64,000 bases of DNA from the NCBI GenBank assembly GCA_000309945.1, contig CM001633.1, positions 2,080,292-2,144,291 of the forward strand, in the 5' to 3' direction. The position numbers were made by a program, and so were the translations under genes. Source of the DNA: Leptolyngbyaceae cyanobacterium JSC-12 (GTDB lineage Bacteria; Cyanobacteriota; Cyanobacteriia; Leptolyngbyales; Leptolyngbyaceae). The stretch's first letter is position 1. Every line of letters begins with the position of its first letter. Positions 43,490 to 45,652 of this stretch are shown here, piece by piece. Under the pieces are notes generated by a model, which had not been told where the DNA came from, searched no databases, and saw only the letters and a program-made list of their open reading frames with translations.

Positions 43490-43978
43490 TTATCCTGGAA
43501 TCATTTGCACAATGAGTGCCCGCTTATCTAAAGACTGAACTTTACCGGCTGGAGAGAGATCTGTGACGATCCGATCAAGTAAATCCATCGCGCGCTCCCG
43601 ATTTTGATGTTCTCTCCCCCGCAAACGCACCTGAAATTTCACTGAATCCCCCTTCCCTAACCATTCAACCGCTCTACTAATCCGCAAACTGTAGTCTGAT
43701 TCGCCCACGTTTGGACGCAACCTGACTTCTTTGAGGGTTGATCGAGTGCTTTGATGTTGGCGTTTCTTTTGCTGGTACTGATGCTTACCGTAGTCCAAAA
43801 TTTTAGCGACTGGAATCTCCTTATTCTCAGAGACAATCACCAGATCCAGGTCTACACTTTCAGCCAGCTTTAGAGCTTCATAGGTATCAACTAAACCACG
43901 ATTGCTATTCTCATGGTCGATTAGAAGCACCTGAGCGGATTTGATTTGCCGGTTGATCTGTTGTTTTGTAGCGATAAT
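43490..43978 (-). CDS. infC: Translation initiation factor IF-3, divergent, probable AUU start
   Basis: About 162 residues. The linker segment ILDYGKHQYQQKKRQ, the N-domain TYEALKLAESVDLDLVIVSE and the C-domain KEVRLRPNVGESDYSLRI, FQVRLRGREHQ are clear IF-3 features. The first in-frame GTG (43930) would remove the conserved N-terminal ATKQQINRQIKSAQ. A stop lies at 43994-43996, and ATT at 43978 sits 4 nt after GAAGAGGGA. AUU starts are known for infC, where IF-3 represses its own translation. It is divergent from cyanobacterial housekeeping IF-3 as I remember it, so it may be a second copy. Confidence 0.82.
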   Translation of the reverse strand: MIATKQQINRQIKSAQVLLIDHENSNRGLVDTYEALKLAESVDLDLVIVSENKEIPVAKILDYGKHQYQQKKRQHQSTRSTLKEVRLRPNVGESDYSLRISRAVEWLGKGDSVKFQVRLRGREHQNRERAMDLLDRIVTDLSPAGKVQSLDKRALIVQMIPG

Positions 43979-44105
43979 ACGTCCCTCTTCAATTCAATAG
44001 TTAGATTTTTCTGACAATACCAGGATAACGAAAGAATGACTTAGATAGCATTAAGCTTAGAGACACACATACTTTCTTATTTCTTCAGATTGATTCAAAT
44101 CCCAG

Positions 44106-44390
44106 TCAGTCATGAATTGTCCCATCCGGCATCTTGGTTCCTTTCAAGTTGGCAGCTTGCAAATCAGCACCTTCTAATTGGGCCCAACTTAAATCAGCTC
44201 CTCTTAAATCAGCCCAGCGTAAATTTGTTTGCCGCAAATCAGCCCAACGCAAATTAGCATGGCGTAAGTTGGCTCTTAACAAATTTGCTCCCTTCAAATC
44301 TATATAGCTAAGATTGGCTGAGCTAAGGTCAACATTATGAAAATCTCGCTCTCCCGCTGCGTACAGCATTTGGAGTTCAGTAGTGTTCAT
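44106..44390 (-). CDS. Pentapeptide-repeat protein
   Basis: 94 residues from ATG 44390. A short helical N-terminus (MNTTELQMLYAAGERDFHNVD) is followed by about 12 A(D/N)LxX units (SANLSYIDLKGANLLRANL onwards) forming a right-handed beta-helix. It is the same type as the protein at 45263-45652, which starts MNTKELLSRYMAGQRNF and shares the helical opening, so the two are paralogues flanking Rbp/S21. No TM helix. Function unknown. It is divergent from the RNA-binding protein. Confidence 0.85.
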   Translation of the reverse strand: MNTTELQMLYAAGERDFHNVDLSSANLSYIDLKGANLLRANLRHANLRWADLRQTNLRWADLRGADLSWAQLEGADLQAANLKGTKMPDGTIHD

Positions 44391-44533: not shown

Positions 44534-44836
44534 ATGTCAATTTATGTTGGTAATTTGTCTTACAATGTTACGTCAGATGACCTAACTCAAACTTTTGCAG
44601 AATATGGCACGGTCAAGCGGGTTCAGTTACCAACAGATCGAGAAACAGGTCGGCTACGTGGCTTCGCTTTTGTCGAAATGGAAACAGATGCTGAGGAAGA
44701 CAAAGCTATCGAAGCTCTTGATGGGGCGGAATGGATGGGGCGCGATCTAAAAGTTAATAAGGCACGACCCCGGGAGGAAAGAGGCTCTTCTGGAGGAAGT
44801 TGGGGAAATAAAGGCGGGTCATCCCGGCGATACTAA
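44534..44836 (+). CDS. RRM-type RNA-binding protein (Rbp)
   Basis: 100 residues from ATG 44534 with CTGGAGAG upstream. A single RNA-recognition motif: RNP2 is IYVGNL at residues 3-8 and RNP1 RGFAFVEM at about 42-49; the C-terminal tail is Gly/Ser/Arg-rich (ERGSSGGSWGNKGGSSRRY). Cyanobacterial Rbp proteins are cold-induced and have been linked to mRNA targeting and desaturase expression. The adjacent rpsU is a known companion in several cyanobacteria. The 5' leader (about 70 nt, pyrimidine-rich) could be a cold-response element; not proved. Confidence 0.93.
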   Translation: MSIYVGNLSYNVTSDDLTQTFAEYGTVKRVQLPTDRETGRLRGFAFVEMETDAEEDKAIEALDGAEWMGRDLKVNKARPREERGSSGGSWGNKGGSSRRY

Positions 44837-44965: not shown

Positions 44966-45154
44966 ATGACTCAAGTCATTCCTGGTGAAGATGAAAGAAT
45001 TGAATCAACGCTACGCCGCTTTAAGCGGGAAGTTTCTAAAGCAGGAATTTTTTCAGATATGAAAAAGCATCGTCACTTTGAGACACCGACTGAAAAGCGA
45101 AAACGTAAACTTCTGTCTATGCACAAGCAACGCAAAAAAAGGTTTCATTACTGA
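44966..45154 (+). CDS. rpsU: Ribosomal protein S21
   Basis: 62 residues. Basic small-subunit protein near the 3' end of 16S rRNA, aiding initiation. The sequence [29 protein letters not shown] is the S21 core; the C-terminus is highly basic. The length is normal for cyanobacteria. It follows rbp by about 130 bp on the same strand, the usual Rbp-S21 arrangement. IF-3 paralogue, Rbp and S21 together suggest a translation-adjusting cluster. Confidence 0.95.
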
Positions 45155-45262
45155 AGTTTTGAGGTTTCGTGCGATCGCACATACTATTCCAGAGTCAGTA
45201 TTCAAGACTTTTCACTAGTTTAGCAATTGTTAATGCTTTCAATTCTAGGAGTAACTCACTCA

Positions 45263-45652
45263 ATGTTAGGCAATCCTTCAACATCATTAGACAGCATGAA
45301 TACCAAAGAATTATTGAGTCGATATATGGCAGGGCAAAGAAACTTTAGCAATTTAAATCTAATAGCAGTGAATCTTAGGAACATGAATTTGCCAGGAATC
45401 AACCTAAGCGGTGCTAATTTAACAAAAGCCAACCTCACTCGAACTAACTTAGATCGTGCAAATCTTACAGGGGCGATTTTGAATGGTGCAAATCTGACTG
45501 AAACCAGTTTAACTCAAGCAAATTTAAGAAATGCCAACCTGACTGGAACGAATCTTGAGACTGCGAATCTTAGCCAGGCTTACTTGAGTGGAGCAACCCT
45601 GCCTGATGGAATGGGATCTGCTCAACGAGCTAAATTGATACAGCCCAATTGA
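45263..45652 (+). CDS. Pentapeptide-repeat protein
   Basis: 129 residues from ATG 45263 with TAGGAG upstream (an earlier TTG and a later ATG at 45296 are alternatives). A helical lead (MNTKELLSRYMAGQRNF) is followed by about 14 A(D/N)LxX repeats (GANLTKANLTRTNLDRANLTG and so on) to near the end, then a short polar tail. It has no TM helix. It is clearly related to the reverse-strand gene at 44106-44390. Function unknown; beta-helix scaffold or DNA-mimic roles are known in the family but not supported here. Confidence 0.85.
   Translation: MLGNPSTSLDSMNTKELLSRYMAGQRNFSNLNLIAVNLRNMNLPGINLSGANLTKANLTRTNLDRANLTGAILNGANLTETSLTQANLRNANLTGTNLETANLSQAYLSGATLPDGMGSAQRAKLIQPN

Follow-up and report, generated by a model that had tools for sequence, protein, structure and literature searches.

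A second, divergent IF-3 gene of cyanobacteria that probably starts at AUC, AUU or AUA

Introduction

Where does translation begin in an IF-3 gene whose frame holds no ATG, GTG or TTG ahead of the conserved N-terminus? The question is raised by a minus-strand frame at 43490-43996 of the window, by which we mean the whole stretch of 64,000 nucleotides analysed here, from Leptolyngbyaceae cyanobacterium JSC-12. Non-AUG infC starts are a textbook example of autoregulation, described in housekeeping infC genes. Starts other than ATG, GTG and TTG are repressed by IF-3, and through this effect the infC genes of E. coli (ATT) and Streptomyces (ATC) are under feedback control (PMC5472188). The initial annotation had read the frame as a divergent IF-3 beginning at AUU 43978 and had called AUU a hallmark of infC; AUC and AUU are both known infC starts (PMC5472188).

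A paralogue beside the ordinary infC

The frame reads TGA(43996-43994) ATT GAA GAG GGA CGT ATT(43978) ATC(43975) GCT ACA AAA CAA... and its stop ends at 43490. Its elements are the following.

43493-43975, minus strand: infC2, a divergent IF-3 paralogue of 161 amino acids counted from the probable AUC (stop codon 43490-43492), recognised by domain matches and dN/dS
43973-43975, minus strand: probable start codon ATC (AUC), aligned with ATC, ATT or ATA in 102/102 orthologues and preceded by GAGG exactly 8 nt upstream
43984-43987, minus strand: Shine-Dalgarno (SD) core GAGG, 8 nt before the ATC
43976-43978, minus strand: ATT proposed in the initial annotation, a less likely start, ATT not being conserved at the aligned codon of the orthologues
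43994-43996, minus strand: upstream in-frame stop TGA, read from the frame, which bounds the N-terminus
43928-43930, minus strand: GTG, the first canonical in-frame start and the one used by a standard gene caller, here internal codon V16

The product matches Pfam IF3_N (PF05198) at 82.4 bits (cut-off 26.9) and IF3_C (PF00707) at 66.1 bits (cut-off 34.8), with the N- and C-terminal domains in order, as well as the NCBIfam infC model TIGR00168 at 143.1 bits (cut-off 60), which is matched by 13/13 tested members of the family. The family profile aligns with solved IF-3 structures from position 5-7 onward. In the AlphaFold model of infC2 the C-domain has pLDDT values mostly above 90 and the N-domain is poorly modelled; the best PDB matches to this model are IF-3.

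The call of a divergent IF-3 has held up, but the gene is not infC itself. A look elsewhere in the genome (5.53 Mb, one contig), as the initial annotation had advised, located an ordinary and higher-scoring IF-3 gene at G000:C1:1640940-1641197: infC2 is a paralogue beside it, with about 40% identity to the canonical gene, and is not the housekeeping (only) infC. Close orthologues at 63-83% identity occur in 13 genomes, its own included, in a search of 58 relatives, and a phylum-wide sample contained infC2 in 25 of 386 genomes, while a scan of GTDB contigs yielded 80 kept loci. Carriers include Phormidium, Leptolyngbyaceae, Coleofasciculus, Nodosilinea, Nostoc, Calothrix, Fischerella, Chlorogloeopsis, Brasilonema and others, many of them filamentous cyanobacteria. 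Copies are also found on Nostoc plasmids (L169, L170, L171 and L172), and a Coleofasciculus MAG contig (L095) carries two, one with an ATA start and one with an ATC start.

A tree was built from 42 paralogues, 31 canonical cyanobacterial IF-3 sequences and 3 outgroups; in it the paralogues form one side of a branch with an SH-aLRT of 100 and a long stem. This long branch makes their exact placement with respect to the canonical cyanobacterial proteins unreliable. An origin in phage was considered and rejected, as no viral contig carried a close relative and the phage records that surfaced held only distant IF-3.

The start codon

The initial annotation was right that no ATG, GTG or TTG is available at the natural N-terminus, the first canonical codon being GTG 43930, and that a stop (TGA 43996-43994) stands directly ahead of ATT 43991-43993. 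It was also right that conserved IF-3 sequence lies upstream of the GTG: the residues there, IATKQQINRQIKSAQ, contribute to the IF3_N match, which runs from residue 7 onward. Its proposal of a non-canonical start is strongly supported, and only the exact codon has to be moved, by one codon, from ATT 43978 to AUC 43975-43973, which is most likely the start on comparison of the orthologues. The reason is that the codon aligned with ATT 43978 varies (ATT 59, GTT 18, CTT 10, ACT 6, GCT 4, GTC 2, ATC 2 and GCC 1), whereas the next is ATC in 88, ATT in 9 and ATA in 5 of 102 distinct orthologues and ATG, GTG or TTG in none. The nine ATT starts belong to a Nodosilinea-type lineage. Two figures in the initial annotation change as well. 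The motif GAAGAGGGA ends 3 nt before ATT 43978 and not 4, and the 16 residues said to be lost to a standard caller hold only for a start at ATT, the loss being 15 from ATC.

The surroundings of this codon (AUC, AUU or AUA; collectively AUH) are equally constant. A GAGG with an 8-nt spacer precedes it in 85 of the 97 automatically scored sequences, the rest having a different core whose register is the same or adjacent, and the five sequences with no scored SD core still keep the AUH codon. The 3' ends of the two 16S-type sequences in the genome are CCTCCTTT. The base at -1 is T in 97 orthologues and C in 5. Further loci that the first script had missed (L055-L057, L117, L128, L130, L131, L133, L136 and L169-L171) have the same start pattern; L056 looks like an exception with its open frame of 326 codons, yet carries GAGG, 8 nt and ATC as elsewhere. 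In 57/102 orthologues exactly 4 codons of open frame precede the start, and in 74/102 the interval from the upstream stop to the AUH codon holds no canonical start. An upstream canonical start or a leaderless ORF was rejected given the close in-frame stop and this lack of an intervening start in the same 74. Since an SD, an AUH codon and the lack of a canonical N-terminal start recur together in 102 distinct orthologues, the arrangement is not due to chance. The orthologues are phylogenetically correlated and represent about 4 independent changes of the codon rather than 102.

The genome's other type of IF-3 gene provides a contrast. All 31 distinct canonical cyanobacterial infC genes offer ATG, GTG or TTG in frame at the expected N-terminus, and their starts, as read from sequence and not from experiment, are mostly without an obvious SD.

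Selection acts on the stretch that a gene caller would discard. Between the start and the site of the window's GTG, dN/dS is about 0.07, against about 0.10 in the rest of the gene (1592 sequence pairs at 80-97% identity, which are not independent of one another), and the low value indicates that these codons are translated. Synonymous divergence is lower in the first few codons (0.20 versus 0.46 and 0.54), a pattern that would be expected around a start site. The start codon is also conserved as DNA, because ATC makes up 86% of starts but only 28% of internal Ile codons (ATT 661, ATC 282, ATA 64). Our main argument that AUG is selectively avoided comes from the tree, on which at least 4 changes have taken place among ATC, ATT and ATA and none to ATG, even though each of the three is one substitution away from ATG and the initiating residue would stay the same. 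Taken as a whole, the comparison supports a non-AUG start, its conservation, the paralogue relationship and selection at the protein level.

Against this background the competing accounts of the frame can be weighed. A start at AUU 43978, with a spacer of 5 nt, agrees with the ATT in the window and in 59/102 orthologues and with the AUU of E. coli infC, but it is very unlikely in view of the other codons found there in 43 orthologues, close relatives such as L004 among them, and of the more usual 8-nt spacer to AUC. Translation from a GTG or TTG near residue 16-19, with the upstream conservation being due to something else, would match the gene-caller annotation. We give this account hardly any credence: the first canonical codon after the start, which usually falls at residue 16-20, varies between lineages in position and identity and is preceded by an SD core in 0/102 orthologues, the codons upstream of it evolve as protein, and the N-terminal part of IF3_N would be lost. 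That infC2 is a decaying duplicate is least credible still. One plasmid copy (L172) is indeed a fragment beside an IS630 transposase, but frames are intact in the other loci examined, purifying selection is strong and the gene is kept in many species; frameshift, sequencing error and pseudogene are rejected on conservation and dN/dS.

A practical consequence follows for databases. As callers allow only ATG, GTG and TTG, infC2 entries are wrong at the N-terminus, with the protein usually shortened by 15-19 residues. On the Nostoc plasmids, annotation begins the protein only at residue 18 in L169 and L171, and in L170 it places the start upstream of the SD.

The infC2 protein

The residues compared are those known in E. 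coli IF-3 for ribosome contact and fidelity, with E. coli numbering; infC2 retains the majority of the contact residues and has lost others. R131, R133 and Y75 are kept in infC2, as are R99, R147 and Y70 in nearly all sequences, which also have a basic residue at 110 (K110). Other positions have changed, with F, L or Y at R25, an acidic or neutral residue at R112, and Q, E or G at R116; the segment around R168 is absent, and the linker is shortened by about 4 residues. Canonical cyanobacterial IF-3 is likewise variable at R112 and R129. With the equivalents of R25, R112, R116 and R168 altered or absent and a shorter linker, the product may itself not discriminate between start codons.

Leader and neighbouring genes

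Two further features lie on the 5' side of infC2.

44014-44030, minus strand: promoter-like block CGTTATCCTGGTATTGT (extended -10-like), conserved in most orthologues
44534-44836, plus strand: RRM RNA-binding protein of the Rbp type with a glycine-rich C-terminus, divergent from infC2

In most orthologues the block CGTTATCCTGGTATTGT precedes the SD by roughly 25-35 nt, and we read it as a putative core promoter from which a separate transcript with a short leader would arise. A consensus scan of the infC2 surroundings returned no sigma-70 promoter and no terminator, and the leader had no match in Rfam above a family threshold.

Of 84 loci, 28, only a third, have an RRM-family gene no more than about 5 kb from infC2, in three relative arrangements that occur even among the close relatives of the window. 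The whole 5.53-Mb genome has 6 RRM genes, so that chance would place one near about 1% of loci, the loci being related to one another. Glycine-rich Rbp1 of Synechocystis is required for cold adaptability (PMC9333190), and E. coli in the cold raises the ratio of initiation factors to ribosomes (PMC6511846). For the trigger of infC2, the recurrent Rbp neighbour is a hint of cold or stress; given these two reports, cold or stress is a reasonable first condition to consider, and no more.

Several other neighbours were seen. A small protein encoded after the Rbp gene (44966-45154, plus strand, divergent from infC2) is bS21-like by eye, and a few related loci likewise have genes like Rbp and bS21 close to infC2. 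They are flanked in the window by genes for two pentapeptide-repeat-like proteins (44106-44390, minus strand, and 45227-45652, plus strand) with similar N-termini, MNTTELQMLYAAGERDF and MNTKELLSRYMAGQRNF, whose relatives recur upstream of infC2 in several loci. Other recurrent neighbours are clade-specific and, by eye, P-II-like, response regulator or thioredoxin-like proteins (L098, L088, L170, L075 and relatives).

Proposed regulation

We consider it probable that infC2 is a second IF-3 gene from a cyanobacterial paralogue clade, which starts at AUC, AUU or AUA behind an SD and serves as an IF-3-sensing back-up or stress supply. The infC2 mRNA would be initiated at AUC, or in some lineages at AUU or AUA, with fMet presumably inserted, and its good SD would offset the weak start codon. 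In the extended anticodon idea, a U at -1 pairs with the initiator tRNA, and the conserved U at -1 of infC2 may add such a pair. Because 30S-bound IF-3 rejects starts other than AUG, GUG and UUG, infC2 would be poorly translated when IF-3 per 30S is high, and its translation would rise when IF-3 activity per 30S falls. That IF-3 represses infC2 is a reasonable inference, and the repression would come from canonical IF-3 (cross-regulation) at least as much as from the infC2 product itself. Both the trigger and the role of the product, which may be that of a complete IF-3 or of a variant of altered fidelity, are our inferences.

The non-AUG start could instead be real and yet a constant brake on a rarely needed IF-3 variant, with no sensing of IF-3. 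A near-cognate start reduces expression with or without regulation, and the good SD could merely compensate for it. We think this unlikely, since a weak SD or a GUG or UUG start would be equally effective and easy to evolve, whereas over 100 sequences use only AUH codons, the class that IF-3 rejects, which interchange with one another and never with AUG.

Returning to IF-3 sensing, a broader and tentative version, which we hold to be possible but doubtful, is that the job of IF-3 is split between a housekeeping factor and a conditional one with an AUH start that senses IF-3 activity, and that the latter, altered at some of its 30S-contact positions, works together with the Rbp proteins often encoded nearby to remodel start-codon choice or ribosome recycling under stress such as cold. 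If the proposal is true, infC2 would be a natural experiment in which the sensor is separated from the essential factor, and cyanobacteria would be able to mix or swap IF-3 variants.

Comparison with known systems

AUC and AUU starts of infC are themselves known, but a clade-wide second IF-3 with a non-AUG start appears to be undescribed; no description of a cyanobacterial IF-3 paralogue was found in the literature searched (open-licence papers). One comparison is with the canonical infC of the same genome (G000:C1:1640940), which shares the two-domain family but differs in having a canonical start available, in keeping the R116 and R168 equivalents and a longer linker, and in being found in nearly every genome searched. 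E. coli infC is like infC2 in belonging to the IF-3 family and in using a near-cognate AUH start against which IF-3 discriminates. There, however, autorepression (AUU) acts on a single essential gene, whereas in cyanobacteria it is a second, divergent copy that has the non-AUG start, and its autorepression is putative.

The infC of Streptomyces (PMC5472188) has the same AUC start and is likewise misannotated in public genomes, but it encodes the housekeeping IF-3, while in cyanobacteria a canonical start is available to the housekeeping copy. Streptomyces sigR, with its GTC start and repression by IF-3 (PMC5472188), differs from infC2 in codon and has an unrelated product, but it resembles our proposal in being a gene other than housekeeping infC that is under control by IF-3 through its start codon.
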